A stretch of DNA of 64,000 nucleotides from Microcoleus vaginatus HSN003 (GTDB taxonomy: Bacteria > Cyanobacteriota > Cyanobacteriia > Cyanobacteriales > Microcoleaceae): NCBI RefSeq assembly GCF_022701255.1, contig NZ_CP031705.1, positions 1,377,501-1,441,500 on the forward strand, written 5' to 3'. Below are positions 53,519-64,000 of the stretch, piece by piece. A program made the position numbers and the translations under genes. Under the pieces are notes generated by a model, which had not been told where the DNA came from, searched no databases, and was given only the letters and a program-made list of their open reading frames with translations. How positions within the stretch are numbered: position 1 is the stretch's first letter; each line of letters begins with the position of its first letter.

Positions 53519-53576
53519 AAAATTATAAAATCACAGTTAACTAATGACTAACAATCAAAGTAACCCGGTTTGATCT

Positions 53577-53753
53577 GAGATGTTGCACCATTCTCAATAA
53601 GCCTTTTATGAACAGGCAAGATGCCTGTTCCACAAGAAAATTCACTCTTTGTGGAACAGGCATCTTGCCTGTTCTTGAGGCCTGTCCCACAAGAAAATTC
53701 ACTGTTTGTGGAACAGGCATCTTGCCTGTTCTTGAGAATGGTGCAAGATGTGA
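53577..53753. mobile_element. MITE copy 2 with internal duplication
   Basis: A 177-bp relative of copy 1: left end TGAGATGTTGCACCATTC, right end GAATGGTGCAAGATGTGA, flanked by GTTTGATC on both sides (53569-53576, 53754-53761). The core hairpin (TTTGTGGAACAGGCATC-TTGCCTGTTC) is present twice. It lies between the ATPase and permease genes of one operon. Confidence 0.9.
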
Positions 53754-53844
53754 GTTTGATCCGAGATTTATCGTTGCCCAATTCAAGATTATCAAAGCAA
53801 CCGGGTTCATAAGCGTAATTCATAAATTAATGACTGTTGGCTAA

Positions 53845-56170: not shown

Positions 56171-59100
56171 TCAGTTTACCTGCTTCGACAAAATTAAATT
56201 AAGCACGTTCAATTCGTTGGAACTTAAAAGATATTTATCTGTGAAAATCTTTTCTCGACTTTGCTCTAAACTGTAGCTTCTAAACACGATAAATGGAAAG
56301 TCTCGATACTTGTGCCCGATCGGCATTACACTATCTACAGGGTAGATCGATCGCACATAAGCCGACAAAATATCCCGAAACCGCCTGTCTTCCGGTTCTT
56401 CCAGCTTACTGTCAGCAAAATACTCTTTCATTTCCTCCCCGCTGACAAAAGCAAACAGCGGTATGGCATAATAGCGATCGAACTGCTGACTCTGCTCTTC
56501 AAAATACTGAGTTTTCTCCACATCGCTGTTGAGAAATTGCAATAACTCGATCGCACCGCCTCTAATTGCCGATATTACATTCTCCGGGGACGAATCGCTA
56601 TCCCTAATTAGACGCATTTTTTTCAGCAACTTCTTTTCTAGACATTCCTTGATTTCCCGATGCAGCGACATCTGGTATGTTTCTCCCAAAGTGCGATCGG
56701 CTAGAGGTACCATCAACAAACTACCGCAAACATGACCGATCTCTAAATTATCATAGCTCAGCAAACCATCAAGAGGATTGCACTTTTCCAAAAACTTACG
56801 ATTAAAATCATCCCGCATTTCCAGATAGGAATCGCCCTTTTGACGAGACTTATCAGAATTTGTCAAAACAAACTCCCCGCGACCCAAAAGCTGTTCCAGA
56901 CTCGTATAAACCTCCTTAAACAACATATTTCCTCGCTGGCTCTCGCTCTTTAATGCCTTAATTAGAGCAGCCATTTTGCTGCTAAAAGTATCCCCTACGG
57001 CGGAAACCGACTTACCACCAATCGGAATCATCAAAAACTTATCCCTACCTAAATAACCGTATCCCGAAATTCGCGTCATCACCGCAGTCTTCAGAATTAG
57101 CAATAAATTCAACAAACTCAATTTGCTTTCTTGCAGGGAAAGTTCCGCATCCTCAGCGTAATAAACTGCGGTATCAGACAGATAAAAAACCAATTCCTTA
57201 TCTTCACCATCAAGGGTTTTACCGTTCTCATCTTCTCCGCGTCCCCGATAAATCACCTGTATGACTTCCATCAGATTTTTCTCAATTTGGAAGCGGGGAA
57301 TATCCACTAAAATGTGCTTGGTTTTCGGGAAAGAAAGCCCCCGACTTCCCGATGCAGTCATAAAGATTACTTTAGCTGTATTTTTGTATTCCTGTATTTT
57401 TTCTTTCTCCTTTTCCGAGATATTCGCGTGAATTTCCAGATAATCGGTAAACTGCTCAAACTTTTCGCGACTATCTTTAATTTTTTCAATTAATTCTGCC
57501 AATCTTTGCTTGTTTTGAATATATACTATAATTTGTTCCACACCGGGGATGGCTAATCGCTGATTGATATCCTGAATTATTTCAGACTGTACCCGCTTGA
57601 CTAAATTGCTCTTCTCTTTTAAAGGTGCATTTTCACTGTACTTAACCGTTTCTACAAATACCTTGTAAGTTATCTCTAAACTGCGGGCAGGGTAGGAATT
57701 AGCATTGATTACCGTTGCATCTAGATTCTTGAATTTAAAAGGAATGACTTGTAAAGGTTCAATTACATCAGAATTTTTGGCTAATTTTTTAAAGTAGATT
57801 TTATCCGGTTCCGGTGACGTGTTATCAAGGTGTTGTTTAATCACATCGGAGTCAACAATCGAAGCATCTGCCACAATAATTTTAGTATTAAAACCGTGTT
57901 CCCGCTTGTGCAACTCATATTTTTTTACAATCTTGGCAATTCCGTCTAAAAACTCAACGCCGCCGTCATCTCCGGTAATTTCATCTATCATAATGAAAAT
58001 ATGTTTGATGCGACTGGAGATTTCTTGCATCTTAGCGGTAATGACCCGTTTGTCGCGTTTATTGTAAGTATCTTGAAAAATTTTATCTAAATGCTCTAGG
58101 GTATTTTGCCGGTTCTCTTTCATCTTCACCGATTGAATAGAAACGGTAGCTACGATATTATTAGATACCTGACAATTTATCAGCGCGTATATACCTTCGC
58201 AAATGGTCTTAAGCACTCCATTTCCTTTGGGATTAACGGGTTTGATTACTGTTTCTCCCTTTTTTTTAAGTTCGGATTGATGATATTCCGTCCTCTGAAT
58301 TTCTGAATCATCCTTGAGGAAGCGAACAGTTTTTTTGGGGAAATCTTCGCGATAGCTATTCGATGCGTACTTGACGGTACAGTGTCCTAAATTGCTTTTG
58401 ATGATATCCGCGTTAGTGTTGATACAAAATAATCGATCGTCGCACAGCCCACCAGTATTTTTATCTTTGAATTTTTCGATGATATCTAAGTTTACTTGCT
58501 TGCGGGGACTGACGTATAGGAATAAGAAACCGTCGTCTATATGGGTTTTGAGGAATTTGGCGATCGCAGTTGTTTTCCCAATTCCCGGATTACCCGTCAA
58601 AAAGATATAAGTTTCATCAGATTGAAGCGCTTTTACAATCAATTGAGCGTGAGCCTTTCTCAGATGTAATCCGCGCTCGATTTGCAAGTTATCTGCCAGT
58701 TTATCTGATATAATATCTATGGAATTAGCAAAATTATCAATCCGTTCTTTATGAAAGACTGGGGCAGTATTTTTGCCAATTTCTAACAGAGGATTTACTA
58801 ATTTTTTGCCGTCTTTGAAACTGCGAGCTGCGTTAAGTTGAATAACATCTAAAACTTCGCTGCGGGCGTCGCTAATCTCTTTATCTTTCGCTTCATTCTG
58901 GTAAATCTGAGCGCAAGTTGCTAACAACTTGATTTTGTCCTGGCGTAGGGAAATAGCGCTAATATTGCGATCGCCATAACCAACCACATTAAACAAAACC
59001 TCAGCATCACTTGAAATTATACCAGTTTGTTGTAGAAATCCATAGAAACTGTGAGCATAGCTACCAGCCTGAATTAACTTAGTGCTTTCCTTATCCTTAT

Positions 59101-59827
59101 ACTTAAAAGCTGTAAAAAATCGTTTTAAATCCTCCGAAAAATCAACACCTAAAGTGCTGGTATCCACCCGCAGATTAGAAAACACACTTTTCGATCGCAA
59201 ATAGCTAATTTCTCTCATCAAATATTTGCGTATCACCTCTATTTCATTGATATCCTCCGGTTTTGGAGCTAACATCGGAGAAAACACAGACAAATCAACG
59301 CAGAGAATTCTAAAATCATTTCCATACTGTAACAGCATCAGCGTATCAGCCTGCAAAAACTCACCCTTTTTCGAGTAGCGGCGGATGTACGAATTAATCT
59401 CCTCATCTGATAAACTAGGTTGGGCAGTTTTTAACTGAGACAATAGCTCTTTAAACGATTCTTTGTCACCCTTGTTATAGGTTCTGATACTGTTAGAATC
59501 ACTAAAACTGCACTGACAATACACAATTTCCAGCCGCTGCAAATTCCAGCCAGTAGATTTGACGTACTCCCGGAAAAAATTTAACCCACCCAAAAAGCCT
59601 TTTTGGACAAAGAATAAACTCCATTTCTCAACGATTTCAGCATCTAAACTAGCCAGCAGATTGGCTTCCCTGACGATTTCCGCCGTCATCTTTGGCAATT
59701 TGAGCCTCTGCAAATCCAGACGGTAGGAATCGCCAAAATTGTGACTTAAATTTTCCCGCTGAATATATGCCAGAATCCCGATATTGAAGCCTACCTCAAA
59801 TAGCCGTCCCAAATCTTCACCGATCAT
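56171..59827 (-). CDS. large SF2-helicase-like protein of unknown system
   Basis: A 1218-aa protein with no named family that I recognise. Residues 1-380 are unassigned. A helicase-like core follows: motif I FLTGNPGIGKTTAIAKF (about 403-419), motif Ia FLYVSPRKQVNLD, motif II IFIMIDEITGDDGG (about 608-621), motif IV QIIVYIQNKQRLAEL (about 775), motif V VIFMTASGSRGLSFP (about 818-832) and motif VI EVIQVIYRGRGE (about 850-861). The last 330 residues are unassigned. The pattern indicates an ATP-driven nucleic-acid translocase. Its ATG overlaps the upstream stop (TAATG), so it is translationally coupled to the 1010-aa protein. Confidence 0.8.
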   Translation of the reverse strand: MIGEDLGRLFEVGFNIGILAYIQRENLSHNFGDSYRLDLQRLKLPKMTAEIVREANLLASLDAEIVEKWSLFFVQKGFLGGLNFFREYVKSTGWNLQRLEIVYCQCSFSDSNSIRTYNKGDKESFKELLSQLKTAQPSLSDEEINSYIRRYSKKGEFLQADTLMLLQYGNDFRILCVDLSVFSPMLAPKPEDINEIEVIRKYLMREISYLRSKSVFSNLRVDTSTLGVDFSEDLKRFFTAFKYKDKESTKLIQAGSYAHSFYGFLQQTGIISSDAEVLFNVVGYGDRNISAISLRQDKIKLLATCAQIYQNEAKDKEISDARSEVLDVIQLNAARSFKDGKKLVNPLLEIGKNTAPVFHKERIDNFANSIDIISDKLADNLQIERGLHLRKAHAQLIVKALQSDETYIFLTGNPGIGKTTAIAKFLKTHIDDGFLFLYVSPRKQVNLDIIEKFKDKNTGGLCDDRLFCINTNADIIKSNLGHCTVKYASNSYREDFPKKTVRFLKDDSEIQRTEYHQSELKKKGETVIKPVNPKGNGVLKTICEGIYALINCQVSNNIVATVSIQSVKMKENRQNTLEHLDKIFQDTYNKRDKRVITAKMQEISSRIKHIFIMIDEITGDDGGVEFLDGIAKIVKKYELHKREHGFNTKIIVADASIVDSDVIKQHLDNTSPEPDKIYFKKLAKNSDVIEPLQVIPFKFKNLDATVINANSYPARSLEITYKVFVETVKYSENAPLKEKSNLVKRVQSEIIQDINQRLAIPGVEQIIVYIQNKQRLAELIEKIKDSREKFEQFTDYLEIHANISEKEKEKIQEYKNTAKVIFMTASGSRGLSFPKTKHILVDIPRFQIEKNLMEVIQVIYRGRGEDENGKTLDGEDKELVFYLSDTAVYYAEDAELSLQESKLSLLNLLLILKTAVMTRISGYGYLGRDKFLMIPIGGKSVSAVGDTFSSKMAALIKALKSESQRGNMLFKEVYTSLEQLLGRGEFVLTNSDKSRQKGDSYLEMRDDFNRKFLEKCNPLDGLLSYDNLEIGHVCGSLLMVPLADRTLGETYQMSLHREIKECLEKKLLKKMRLIRDSDSSPENVISAIRGGAIELLQFLNSDVEKTQYFEEQSQQFDRYYAIPLFAFVSGEEMKEYFADSKLEEPEDRRFRDILSAYVRSIYPVDSVMPIGHKYRDFPFIVFRSYSLEQSREKIFTDKYLLSSNELNVLNLILSKQVN

Positions 59828-62800
59828 TATTTTGTACCTCCCTCAGTTACGCTCAATACTTCTCTTACCTTATTCAAAAAAGCCAGCGAGTTAAACTCTG
59901 CACTCCCGGTCGCATGACGAAAAACAGATAAAGCACCAACCGAATCATCGCCAATTATCCGCTCGTAGGGGTCAAGTTTTAAACTAATGTTGTGGCGAGC
60001 TTCATACCTAGAAAAGTGGAAAATTGTTAGATAATGCAGCAAAGTATCTTTAATTTCACCATCATATATCAAACCTTGGTGAAGGTCTTGGTCATCCAGA
60101 ATACCGTCGTATATATGCAACAGCGTCGAGTAAGAAATCACACCGTTGTAAAAGTTTTTTTCTCCCGGCTGCTTGACTGTAATCCCGTTAAACAAGTTGA
60201 AAAACATCACAGCTTGCTGATTGCCTTTTGCGGACAAGCTTTCAAGCTCCATTGCATCCTGAATGTAAAAAGATTTTCCTTTATCACCTAGGAAACTGCG
60301 AACAAAGTATTTGTCAAAAAATAGCGGATAAATTTTGATATCTCGCCGCTCTCCCTTCAAAGTTCGGAGCAATTTTTTTGACATGAAAGACAATTCCTCA
60401 TCTTCCTCAGTCTTAGTAATGTGCAGCGTACTCATGTAAGGTGCTTGTGAAATATATGCGAAATTCCGATATCCTTGCTGATAAAGCTGACTCATTGCAT
60501 CTTCAAGAATTAATGGTTCAGTATACAGACGGCTGACGCTGTAATTCTCGGAAAAGGTTTTCAGCATTTCGACTTGAATTGTAGTGTCGTCTAGGCGATT
60601 AATTCCGACAACTTCTCCGATGAAGCTGGCTTGTCTTTGCAAGCGGTTTTGATTACCTTTTCTCGCGTCGCTATCCCGACTGGAAACGACAAGAATCGCC
60701 AACTTATCCAGCTCTGGAGATAGCTGCACATTGTCGAAGCTAAACTTTTTAGGAAGTATTGAATACATGGAACTCAAACCGTTACGGATACGGAAACTAT
60801 CAATTTTTTCTCTAATCCGAAATCCCTGAGAAGTTGAACGGTGTTTTTCACTCAAAATGTGAGACAATGTTTTGGAAAGTTTAGCCATAAACTCTTCTGA
60901 CGGCGAAGGGTGATTATGGTCGCCTTCGTGAAGTCTGACCATCGGAATAAATAAGTTTTTCGCAGCATTTTCCAGCAAGATTCTCAGACAGATATAGGAC
61001 AGCAGCAACATGGTAAATTTATAGACAAAAGCCGCCGCCGGTTGTAAACCTTTATCGCCACTGTCTAGTCGTCTGTCCTCATAAGGAAACAAGACTAATT
61101 TCGTCTGAAAATGCTGGTTGTAGATTTCTCGAGAACGATTTGCTTTAGGTGCAGAAAGTACAGGCAAAACATCGACACCTTCGATATTGTATTCCATGCT
61201 GAAAGTTTGGCGTTCATCAGTAGGAAAATAGCGGACATCTTCGATGGTAATATTGACTGGTAGCTGGCAAATAGATCTTTCGTTGACAGTAGGTTGCTCG
61301 ACGGCAATATAATGGAGTGTCTGCTTATAATTTCGCTCCATAATATCATTAAAAAATTTCCCCGTCGTCAAAATATTGTCAATATCCTCTACCAGACCCA
61401 TTTTGAGGTTGACGTGTCGCGTTTCAGTTCGGCTTGGCAAAATTGTTTGCTGTTTCAGAAAGTTTTTCAGCAATTCCTTGAGACGGTTTATTTTATGTTT
61501 AACATTAACTTCCTTAAACCGAGTCACAAAATTTCGGAAAAGTCTTTTTTTGATTTCCTCATTATCACGACTCAATACATCTTTGATTAGTTTCTCAAAA
61601 CCAGGAAGAGGATTAAAGTCAAGTTCTAATTCAGGGTTGTAATTTTCCGTTTCTGGGTTGTGGGGAGATGCAAAGACAAAGTGATACAGCAATGCTATTT
61701 TTAACACCTTCCGGGCGAATGTTTCGGTAATGGAATCTTCCGCAATTGCTGCTTGGTGCTCTTCACTGTCAGGATTTAGTAGATTCAGATAATATTCAAA
61801 TACTTCCTTTCCACCGAGCGATTGAACTGGGTTATTAAATTTGACTTTGAGAGCAAAGATAAATTTACGTTCGCTTTGAGGGGTGTCGGTGCTTTCTCCC
61901 AAGTAACCTTCTACAATTGAAATAATTGGCAGTGCATCTAAAACTTCCGCTCTGGCAAAAATCTCTCTGTAATTAAATCGGAATCCGGCATAATTTACTT
62001 CATATTCGCCATGGGCTTTACTGCTGTCATTGATGTATTGTTCTATCAATCTGAGGCGGCGAATCAAGTCTTGTAAATAGATGATACCTACAGTATCTTT
62101 GCTGCTAGCGCGGATGTGTTCTAACAGATACTCTAAATAAGTAATTTTTGCTTCTTTATTAAGTTGTCCCAGGGTTTCTTTGTCTACCAGTCGGATTAAT
62201 TTGTGAAAATCTGAGTCGGGATTTTCAACCATCTCATCAAGACGATGGTTAAGTTCTTGCCTATCGTCGCTATTCTCGGCATTTTCCCTAATGTAGTTTT
62301 CCAAACCGTCCTTTAGCTGTTGTTGAAAAATATCGGTGTTTCGCACAGCAATCGTCAACTTATGCAGTTTTAAAGTCGCGTGGCTGCCCGAATCCAGGCG
62401 TTGCAAAGTTAGCTTTTCTTTTTCTAAAGAAGTGTGGCGTTTGCCAAAATCGTATTTAAAACCTAACTCTTGACCGCTTCCCCGAAAAGAAGGTGAATTC
62501 AAAGGAGTGATTAAGCTAGCGACAAACTTTTCTATAGAATCATTTTGTGGTAATTTAGATTCTAAGTGTTGCCGCAAACACTCTTTAATCTGCCTGACGC
62601 GAGCGCCAAAATGATCGTCCACTTCCGCAGGAAAATTAACAGTAGCAGCATCGGCGAAGCGTTCAAAAGAACCCAAGGGTTTCCGTACTTCTAATTTTGC
62701 AACCTCAGCAGCAATGGCATCAATATCGACGATCAGACGGCGGCGATCATCTGATATTTTAAATGGATTGTTTCCCTGCAAAACTTCTAAAATCTTGGCC

Positions 62801-62859
62801 AGCAAATCGCCATAGTCTACGGGGACTAAATCGCTGTCATCCAATCTTAAGATGTTCAC
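59827..62859 (-). CDS. 1010-aa protein of unknown function, helicase partner
   Basis: I do not recognise a domain. It is mostly charged and helical up to about residue 560, has a hydrophobic helix at about 608-632 (FVYKFTMLLLSYICLRILLE) and a C-terminal region from about 700 that alternates strands and helices: LDKLAILVVSSRDSDARKG, SFIGEVVGINRLDDTTIQV, YRNFAYISQAPYMS. That order of strands could suit an RNase H- or PIWI-like fold, but I see no clear catalytic set, so this is only a hypothesis. It lies 13 bp after the YciI gene and overlaps the helicase gene by one base, forming a unit. Confidence 0.75.
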   Translation of the reverse strand: MNILRLDDSDLVPVDYGDLLAKILEVLQGNNPFKISDDRRRLIVDIDAIAAEVAKLEVRKPLGSFERFADAATVNFPAEVDDHFGARVRQIKECLRQHLESKLPQNDSIEKFVASLITPLNSPSFRGSGQELGFKYDFGKRHTSLEKEKLTLQRLDSGSHATLKLHKLTIAVRNTDIFQQQLKDGLENYIRENAENSDDRQELNHRLDEMVENPDSDFHKLIRLVDKETLGQLNKEAKITYLEYLLEHIRASSKDTVGIIYLQDLIRRLRLIEQYINDSSKAHGEYEVNYAGFRFNYREIFARAEVLDALPIISIVEGYLGESTDTPQSERKFIFALKVKFNNPVQSLGGKEVFEYYLNLLNPDSEEHQAAIAEDSITETFARKVLKIALLYHFVFASPHNPETENYNPELELDFNPLPGFEKLIKDVLSRDNEEIKKRLFRNFVTRFKEVNVKHKINRLKELLKNFLKQQTILPSRTETRHVNLKMGLVEDIDNILTTGKFFNDIMERNYKQTLHYIAVEQPTVNERSICQLPVNITIEDVRYFPTDERQTFSMEYNIEGVDVLPVLSAPKANRSREIYNQHFQTKLVLFPYEDRRLDSGDKGLQPAAAFVYKFTMLLLSYICLRILLENAAKNLFIPMVRLHEGDHNHPSPSEEFMAKLSKTLSHILSEKHRSTSQGFRIREKIDSFRIRNGLSSMYSILPKKFSFDNVQLSPELDKLAILVVSSRDSDARKGNQNRLQRQASFIGEVVGINRLDDTTIQVEMLKTFSENYSVSRLYTEPLILEDAMSQLYQQGYRNFAYISQAPYMSTLHITKTEEDEELSFMSKKLLRTLKGERRDIKIYPLFFDKYFVRSFLGDKGKSFYIQDAMELESLSAKGNQQAVMFFNLFNGITVKQPGEKNFYNGVISYSTLLHIYDGILDDQDLHQGLIYDGEIKDTLLHYLTIFHFSRYEARHNISLKLDPYERIIGDDSVGALSVFRHATGSAEFNSLAFLNKVREVLSVTEGGTK

Positions 62860-62872
62860 CCTGTTAACCCCT

Positions 62873-63151
62873 TCAAAAAGCTTGAATCCACTCTTTCACA
62901 TCGTACTCAGTCCAAACCCCATTTACCCAATAAGGATCGGCTTCCACCAATTGTCGCACCTGCGCCTCATCTTCCGCTTCGTAAATTGCAAAAACTTTTG
63001 TTAAATCTTTGGTTGGCCCGATCGTACTTAATACCCCCGATTCCTTCTGCTTAGCCAATCCTGCTAAATGAGCTTCCCGGAAAGGAGCGCGTTTTTCGAT
63101 GACATCCTCGCAGTAACTTCCCCACATCACATATTTAGTCATATCTGTCAA
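62873..63151 (-). CDS. YciI-like protein
   Basis: A 92-aa protein of the YCII/dimeric alpha-beta barrel type: YVMWGSYCEDVIEKRAPFRE, HLAGLAKQKESGVLSTIGP and QLVEADPYWVNGVWTEYDVK match the family pattern with conserved His and DP. Members are small enzymes or binding proteins of uncertain reaction. It lies 13 bp from genes on both sides, so it is probably in the same transcript as the large proteins. Confidence 0.82.
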   Translation of the reverse strand: MTDMTKYVMWGSYCEDVIEKRAPFREAHLAGLAKQKESGVLSTIGPTKDLTKVFAIYEAEDEAQVRQLVEADPYWVNGVWTEYDVKEWIQAF

Positions 63152-63164
63152 CCTCTCGAAAAAT

Positions 63165-63602
63165 CTAAATTTCAGGCTGTCTATCTAAAATCAACCCGAT
63201 CGCCATTGTCATAATATCATCTCGGTTCACCATCTTGGCAATTTCTTCAACATCATAGATTCCTTCAAAAGCCTCTAAAGCCGCCGACTTTAATGCAGAT
63301 TCATAGGCATCCTCTAAAGTTTCGACTAATTCTTCTTCTGTGAGATAAGTGCCTTTCGCTTTATGCCGCTTGTTGGTACGTTGAATTTGTTTAACCGCAT
63401 TAAAGATCGAAGTTTCCCAAGACTTAGTAGTACGGTTTTCAGCAAGTTTTTTGATCAGATGTAATAGCAGAATGATACCATAACTGAAAATTTTGTTAAG
63501 CTTATCGGACTTACTCATTTCTTCTAATTCTGCCACTAACACTAGAGCCTCTGCAACCTTGCCTCGCTGTAGCAACTCCTTTAATTCCATTAATTCTTCC
63601 AT
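63165..63602 (-). CDS. DUF29-like protein
   Basis: A 145-aa helical protein. LIKKLAENRTTKSWETSIFN, AVKQIQRTNKRHKAKGTYLT and EDAYESALKSAALEAFEGIY resemble the DUF29 family, which is abundant and uncharacterised in cyanobacteria. It is the first gene of the minus-strand block leading to the helicase-like protein. No function can be given. Confidence 0.7.
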   Translation of the reverse strand: MEELMELKELLQRGKVAEALVLVAELEEMSKSDKLNKIFSYGIILLLHLIKKLAENRTTKSWETSIFNAVKQIQRTNKRHKAKGTYLTEEELVETLEDAYESALKSAALEAFEGIYDVEEIAKMVNRDDIMTMAIGLILDRQPEI

Positions 63603-63762: not shown

Positions 63763-64000
63763 ATGACTTTATTAGACATTCGTTTATTGACAGTTGAAGA
63801 ATATCACCGAATGGCAGAAATTGGAATTATTGACGAAGATGAACGAGTAGAATTACTGGCGGGACAGATAGTAAAGATGGCAGCAAAAGGAACAGCGCAT
63901 GGTGCAGCGTTGAAACGGACTGTAGAGCTATTACAGAACCTTTTATGGGGTTTGGTATTGCTAAGCATACAAGATCCAGTTCGGTTAAATGATTTCTCGG
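63763..64000 (+). CDS. Uma2-family endonuclease-like protein, cut by window end
   Basis: The N-terminal 79 residues start MTLLDIRLLTVEEYHRMAEI, then GIIDEDERVELLAGQIVKMA, the strand-turn entry of the Uma2/DUF820 fold, and KGTAHGAALKRTVELLQNLL. RBS GAGGAG lies 9 bases before ATG 63763. The frame is open at the window edge. Divergent from the DUF29 gene; 63603-63762 holds its promoter and a short hairpin ACCCACCTGCGTGGGT. Confidence 0.85.
   Translation, partial: MTLLDIRLLTVEEYHRMAEIGIIDEDERVELLAGQIVKMAAKGTAHGAALKRTVELLQNLLWGLVLLSIQDPVRLNDFS

Follow-up and report, generated by a model that had tools for sequence, protein, structure and literature searches.

We describe here a pair of very large genes, called A and B, on the minus strand of a 64,000-nucleotide stretch of Microcoleus vaginatus HSN003 (the window, positions 1377501-1441500 of a single 6.76 Mb contig, NZ_CP031705.1). 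Open reading frames (ORFs) were called with a simple longest-first script, and the sequence confirmed what a first-pass annotation of the window had reported, namely two large ORFs on one strand, here the minus strand, that overlap by one base in a TAATG, the TAA of A and the ATG of B having that base in common. Gene A begins with a GTG at 62859. The two genes and the regions within them on which the argument draws are as follows, with the evidence for each in brackets.

59827..62859, minus strand: gene A, 1010 amino acids (aa), putatively Argonaute/PIWI-like (ORF, no family match, Foldseek, co-occurrence with B)
56171..59827, minus strand: gene B, 1218 aa, superfamily 2 (SF2) helicase with a nuclease-like N-terminus (ORF, Pfam, Foldseek, conservation)
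59845..60711, minus strand: residues 717-1005 of A, candidate RNase H/PIWI-like region (low-confidence AlphaFold2 (AF2) model, Foldseek, conservation)
58928..59827, minus strand: residues 1-300 of B, RecB/Cas4-like motif set (conservation; order of secondary structure in a low-confidence model)
57209..58663, minus strand: residues 389-873 of B, helicase core with GNPGIGKTT, SPR, DEIT, NSYPA and QVIYRGRG (Pfam, Foldseek, conservation)
59825..59829, minus strand: TAATG stop/start overlap of A and B (sequence)

The suggestion that a large protein and a helicase form a coupled pair was borne out in other genomes. Of the B ORFs, 46 exceeded 900 aa, and 43 of these had an A gene directly 5' on the same strand (the overlap was exactly 1 or 4 bases in 15 of these pairs, and the A gene was broken in two, at L086 and L105), two had an insertion between A and B, and one was an in-frame A/B fusion. 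The insertion measured ~2 kb in one locus and ~7.5 kb, including a type IIG restriction gene, in the other (at L107:5775-19900 A and B are separated by small ORFs and a type IIG restriction-methylation gene), and the fusion at L110:4790-8137 is one open frame of 1116 aa matching parts of A and of B, apparently the result of an in-frame deletion. Because these loci were fetched by a match to A or B and some are near-identical, the count speaks for coupling and not for frequency. Nine A ORFs that had first been placed by position were confirmed by an iterated hidden Markov model, with E-values of 8e-215 to 1e-25 before inclusion; the fused ORF was itself included in this iterated A profile. Distances between A proteins followed those between B proteins very closely (r = 0.991 over 38 loci, permutation maximum 0.28 in 2000 permutations), and they did so within clade I alone (r = 0.964 over 25 loci, permutation maximum 0.46). 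Since the same two frame lengths recur in the same order across genomes and plasmids, under purifying selection, the arrangement is not a product of chance. A and B constitute one two-gene module, conserved and co-diverging.

Protein B is an SF2 helicase, as its motifs had indicated at first reading, with two RecA-like lobes, Walker A and B, Helicase_C and motif VI. In Pfam, Helicase_C matched residues 763-861 above its curated cut-off (E-value 2.8e-6), and it was found at E<=0.1 in 31 of 31 B members; the P-loop at residues 404-443 was matched by AAA_22 slightly below that family's cut-off (1.6e-5). A structure model of B (predicted local distance difference test, pLDDT, 48.1, poorer than that of A) still returned SF2 helicase folds from Foldseek at E-values of ~1e-7, which served as a control for the method. 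Ahead of the helicase core, G7, E11, G17, G81, G155, D161, S180, K246, K250, Q253 and Y257 were invariant in 36 of 36 nonredundant B proteins, and position 178 was D or E in all 36, giving (D/E)-x-S, followed by the invariant Q253-x3-Y257. In the low-confidence model these residues lie first on a helix, then next to two strands, then on another helix further along, which is the order of the PD-(D/E)XK core, and QxxxY is an element of RecB/Cas4 nucleases. It is these motifs that suggest a nuclease-like fold for the N-terminus of B, profile searches having given no evidence for one. At the other end of the protein, residues 874-1218 hold no aspartate or lysine conserved at 90% or above.

Protein A had been described as lacking a recognised domain, and this held: there was no significant match to it in Pfam, NCBIfam, PADLOC or PHROGs, and none among PDB sequences at E<=10. 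When 32 aligned relatives were compared with Pfam, the matches were scattered and weak (best E-value 0.005, at most five members for each of the 25 of 43 families listed), and eight further proteins of the A and B families, cyanobacterial and proteobacterial, had no NCBIfam match over the cut-off and no PADLOC match at E<=0.01. An AF2 model of A built with 16 close relatives places three strands, a helix, a strand, a helix and a strand in residues 720-847, the order of an RNase H fold. In a Foldseek search of this model against 350,542 PDB chains, the top nine were all Argonaute/PIWI chains (E-values 0.0031-0.013), representing five proteins: Hili, MpAgo, RsAgo, QDE-2 MID-PIWI and Mili. The next matches were RNase H-bearing reverse transcriptases and ribosomal-protein, RNase H, EndoV and RuvC chains, among unrelated ones, with MutS chains likewise present; in a viral library RNase H folds came out on top and RuvC lower, with nothing at E 0.001. 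An RNase H fold in the C-terminal part of A, which the first-pass annotation had proposed to look for, is thus possible in residues 717-1005, going by a low-confidence model and Foldseek.

Conservation in A was counted over 34 nonredundant proteins. G796, Y910, H948, L962, P964 and A993 were invariant, and the positions conserved at 90% or above include Q678-G679, G796, Y910, H948, E953, L962 and P964; the FH...LDP segment may resemble the end of eukaryotic PIWI domains. No aspartate reached 90%, and from that list we first read A as a dead PIWI protein. This reading was dropped because several acids proved to be near-conserved: D731 was D in 30 proteins and N in 4, D787 was D/E in 31, D849 was D/E in 32, and E953 was kept in 32. 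A may or may not keep a catalytic site such as the DEDX tetrad of Argonautes, in which these acids could be placed only with a good model. R728 was R in 30 of the 34.

Several known systems combine an Argonaute-like protein with a helicase. ApsAB of E. coli ST38, an Argonaute-like protein with a helicase/nuclease that removes plasmids, resembles A-B in having two genes, of which one encodes a helicase with a PD-(D/E)XK domain, and ApsAB-like systems are noted in some cyanobacteria in the published description (PMC11096173). A conserved QG occurs in the Argonaute-like partner of ApsAB and in A (Q678-G679). Of the motif Y-x3-K...QG...K given for the ApsAB MID domain, A has Y622 in 31 of 34 proteins, Q678 in 33 and G679 in all 34, whereas position 626 is K in only 11 (W in 10, R in 6). 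The nuclease of ApsA is C-terminal (D1420...D1433-V-K1435), whereas the nuclease-like motifs of B are N-terminal, in residues 11-257; motif VI reads QAVGRVER in ApsA and QVIYRGRG in B. For ApsAB the Argonaute-like gene was sought downstream of apsA, whereas here A lies 5' of B in the 43 adjacent and two insertion cases of the 46, and ApsB is reported to be without an RNase H fold (PMC11096173), whereas A may have one.

DdmDE, a plasmid defence of Vibrio cholerae, likewise consists of an Argonaute-like protein and a helicase-nuclease. DdmD and DdmE chains were absent from the PDB profile matches of B (E<=1) and A (E<=10), in a PDB copy whose content of these chains was unchecked. The nuclease of DdmD lies at the opposite end of the helicase from the nuclease-like domain of B. 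A further parallel is the pPIWI-RE triad, in which a large PIWI-fold protein and an SF2 helicase share one operon; as far as the consulted sections of its description go (PMC3702460), it comprises three genes, REase-DinG-pPIWI-RE (REase, restriction endonuclease), whereas A-B comprises two in another order. Homology to pPIWI-RE, an idea that came from the R/E pattern of A and its helicase partner, found no support beyond the P-loop in hhalign comparisons with alignments of three pPIWI-RE proteins and three associated DinG helicases: A against pPIWI-RE gave a probability of 0.1, and the similarity of B to the triad DinG was confined to the P-loop. The test is a blunt one, since prokaryotic Argonautes (pAgos), known relatives of pPIWI-RE, scored likewise only 0.2 against it. 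Catalytically inactive pAgos, for their part, are often paired with operon nucleases, and the inactive long-B pAgos resemble A-B in joining an Argonaute-type protein to an associated nuclease or helicase, according to published work (PMC6299218); unlike these, A is ~1000-1200 aa long, has no Piwi match, and has K/R four positions after Y622 in only 17 of 34 proteins. Because gene order, nuclease position and motifs differ from ApsAB, and operon structure from pPIWI-RE, A-B is filed under neither. The libraries searched contain no named family for A or B, which bears on the earlier concern that the pair might match a named system, and in searches of the open literature we recognised no description of the pair (the lists of PMC11096173 were not compared).

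We put at about even the chance that A-B is a guide-directed module against plasmids or phages, working like ApsAB or DdmDE and belonging to a different family. A would be Argonaute-like but diverged, with an RNase H-fold PIWI domain, and would recognise its target through what is probably a bound short guide or DNA/RNA hybrid. Its partner B, the SF2 helicase, would bear a RecB/Cas4-like nuclease fold at its N-terminus and be recruited onto the DNA recognised by A, where it would translocate and unwind, degrade or displace the DNA. The likeliest job would be the removal of plasmids or phage DNA, as in ApsAB and DdmDE; guide binding, complex formation, nuclease activity and an immune role are all points that we infer.

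A number of results weigh against this proposal, several of them concerning A. Its AF2 model is poor (pLDDT 54.7, predicted template modelling score 0.38), residues 845-1010 falling below 50; nothing in the PDB matched it at E 0.001; and the nine Argonaute/PIWI matches superpose at a root-mean-square deviation of 9.8-13.9 Å with query template modelling (TM) scores of 0.11-0.14. Piwi (PF02171) was not among the Pfam matches of the window's A, nor among the 25 of 43 families listed for the 32 members, and no profile link was found from A to pAgo or pPIWI-RE by a method that also missed the one between pAgo and pPIWI-RE. A might then be a large adaptor with another RNase H-like fold, RuvC- or MutS-like, or with some other fold altogether, and the module a restriction-like helicase defence. 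The missing profile link to pAgo, the low TM-scores, Foldseek E-values of only ~0.003-0.01 and the presence of RuvC, EndoV, MutS and ribosomal chains among the matches would suit such a protein, which we nonetheless regard as quite unlikely given that each of the nine best PDB chains belongs to Argonaute/PIWI, with 329-421 columns aligned. The structural comparison points, weakly, to a PIWI-like fold. For B, the usual motif lysine is a serine (S180) in every one of the 36 proteins, and the nuclease-like domain may for that reason be inactive. K246 or K250 could stand in for this lysine, lysine migration being documented in the PD-(D/E)XK superfamily in the part of the literature drawn on here (PMC1189080).

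The distribution of the pair bears on what the module does. Searches of 386 cyanobacterial genomes gave raw counts of 43 genomes with A and 62 with B; after weak matches were dropped (in 1 of the 43 and 12 of the 62), strong matches to A remained in 42 and to B in 50, and all 42 genomes with A also had B, in some cases partial or decayed. Among the eight genomes with B only, seven have a B of the divergent clade II and, upstream of it, an A-family gene that had been missed by the single-sequence search and was confirmed by the iterated profile (in one of the seven, G376 with locus L086, A is cut to 344 aa); the eighth, G308, has a B with stops and no A that we could see. Some copies are in tandem, some A genes are orphans, and other copies are truncated or decayed. 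A cyanobacterial, a Cupriavidus and an Acinetobacter B, used as queries against 72,556 plasmid records, retrieved the same 11, and A lies directly upstream of B in 10 of them (eight by reading, two by match coordinates). Six Nostocales plasmids typed conjugative and four proteobacterial plasmids carry the pair. A Stanieria plasmid has part of B only, with a transposase gene adjoining. Two different plasmids typed conjugative have the same multi-gene block, its last gene annotated coaE, directly 5' of the pair (L082:8408-11787 and L083:8353-11741). No relatives were found on phage or viral contigs in the collections searched. The six conjugative carriers would fit a plasmid or island function, such as inter-plasmid exclusion or maintenance, that was later fixed in the genus of the window; we think this very improbable, given that several copies lie on contigs of at least 3.7 Mb (e.g., in G002, G022, G066, G099, G121 and G187) and that A keeps one stable place in the genus.

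In that genus, 28 of 29 genomes carry A, whole or in part, always 16-279 bases downstream of a YciI match and on its strand; the 29th (G404, 87% complete) has a B fragment only. Calling this locus an accessory region does not suit its local setting, given that 28 of the 29 have A at this one place, although in the phylum the pair is patchy (strong A in 42 of 386 genomes). We read 27 of the 28 loci, which fall into five arrangements: 19 loci have A2-B2, L101 has A1-B1, L189 (truncated by the contig edge) has A1-B1-A2-B2, L186-L188 each have A1-B1-A2, and L184, L185 and L191 each have A2 alone. The type 1 and type 2 A proteins are ~49% identical. Asked whether homologues mostly lack each other, the genomes say that they do not, though three of the 29 have A without B: no B match was found anywhere in G403, G393 or G392 (the genomes of L184, L185 and L191, respectively; G403 is 99% complete), and these orphans count against a strict dependence of A on B. 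The second A in the A1-B1-A2 arrays may share B1 or act alone. Six A2 genes without a B of their own, in tandem or alone, are under purifying selection, with a median ratio of nonsynonymous to synonymous change (dN/dS) of 0.23 over 15 pairs. Median dN/dS was 0.19 for A2 (269 of 325 pairs used), 0.17 for B2 (153 of 153), 0.15 for A1 and 0.18 for B1 (10 pairs each), 0.11 for YciI (227 of 231 pairs) and 0.45 for znuA (6 pairs from 4 genes), so the A-B module is constrained. A2 genes had a median identity of 68% in the genus and B2 genes one of 81%, against 90% for YciI and likewise for znuA. The lower identity of the module relative to YciI may owe something to old alleles or recombination, because its silent change is also higher (median dS 1.01 for A2, the highest, 0.61 for B2 and 0.47 for YciI).

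Such constancy at one site is unusual for a defence gene. Enrichment near known defence genes, a point that the first-pass annotation had raised, was not shown either: at a PADLOC threshold of E<=1e-8 for both sets, 129 cluster representatives of the 170 proteins encoded no more than two genes from the pair at 42 loci matched 153 families, compared with 185 for 129 of 175 ORFs from 20 hand-placed stretches (at most 25 families listed per search). The presence of A at one site in 28 of 29 genus genomes, together with the purifying selection and the co-linear coupling of A and B, would suit a housekeeping DNA repair or recombination complex. In it the helicase B, whose RecB-like domain is perhaps inactive, would work with an RNase H-fold A that handles chromosomal R-loops or branched DNA. 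A precedent is that pPIWI-RE was proposed to act on DNA/RNA hybrids, in a parallel scheme with DinG, in the sections of that paper on which we rely (PMC3702460). We consider repair unlikely all the same, since the module has a scattered distribution in the phylum (strong B in 50 of 386 genomes), is found on plasmids typed conjugative and in decayed copies, comes in two divergent types of which either or both can occupy the one site, and is less conserved within the genus than the flanking YciI gene.

Returning to a guide-directed defence, its more specific form would be one more lineage of Argonaute-like/helicase immunity, independent of the others, whose ~1000-aa PIWI-fold protein targets foreign DNA with a helicase that has a lysine-migrated RecB-like nuclease at its N-terminus. 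Its locus would have become fixed in one cyanobacterial genus, where at one site pairs of types 1 and 2 are stacked or exchanged for one another and targeting subunits are left behind as orphans. We hold this tentatively, its chances falling somewhat short of even. If it is true, Argonaute-like proteins were coupled to helicase-nucleases on at least one occasion besides those of pPIWI-RE, DdmDE and ApsAB, with a larger guide protein and with the nuclease at the end of the helicase opposite to that in ApsA. Such a module could account for a DNA-uptake barrier in filamentous cyanobacteria and would add a family missed by the 2023 PADLOC models, and the genus would offer one site with exchangeable variants for studying how targeting subunits diverge.

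Two small genes precede the pair:

62873..63151, minus strand: YciI gene (PRK12864), a conserved flank of the site in the genus, not a conserved module part
63165..63602, minus strand: DUF29 gene, a variable neighbour

There are 13 bp between the end of YciI and the start of A, and DUF29 ends 13 bp 5' of YciI. It had been supposed that both might be part of the unit. YciI adjoins A in 28 of the 28 genus genomes with A, whereas a tblastn search at the 46 context loci found YciI at 8, all in the genus or its close relatives, and DUF29 at 3, which rules the two out as conserved parts; YciI is a marker of the site and lies outside the module. Beyond B come a znuA-like gene on the plus strand, facing B, and then an ABC transporter ATPase gene. 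Repeated short segments at 53541-53823 of the window, visible as repeated peptide words in overlapping frames, adjoin the znu genes and are possibly the MITE-like elements mentioned in the first-pass annotation. A plus-strand gene that begins in 63763-64000 of the window may be the Uma2 gene named there; the Uma2 family is presumably COG4636, a published case, on that assumption, of a PD-(D/E)XK nuclease with a migrated lysine. Elsewhere, single copies of the pair do have defence genes nearby: drmD of DISARM lies near the pNPM2 copy, HNH and WYL genes follow the module in Acinetobacter piscicola, and at L092:6755-9799 an oppositely oriented gene upstream of A gives a match to the PADLOC HmaC model with an E-value of 7e-101.

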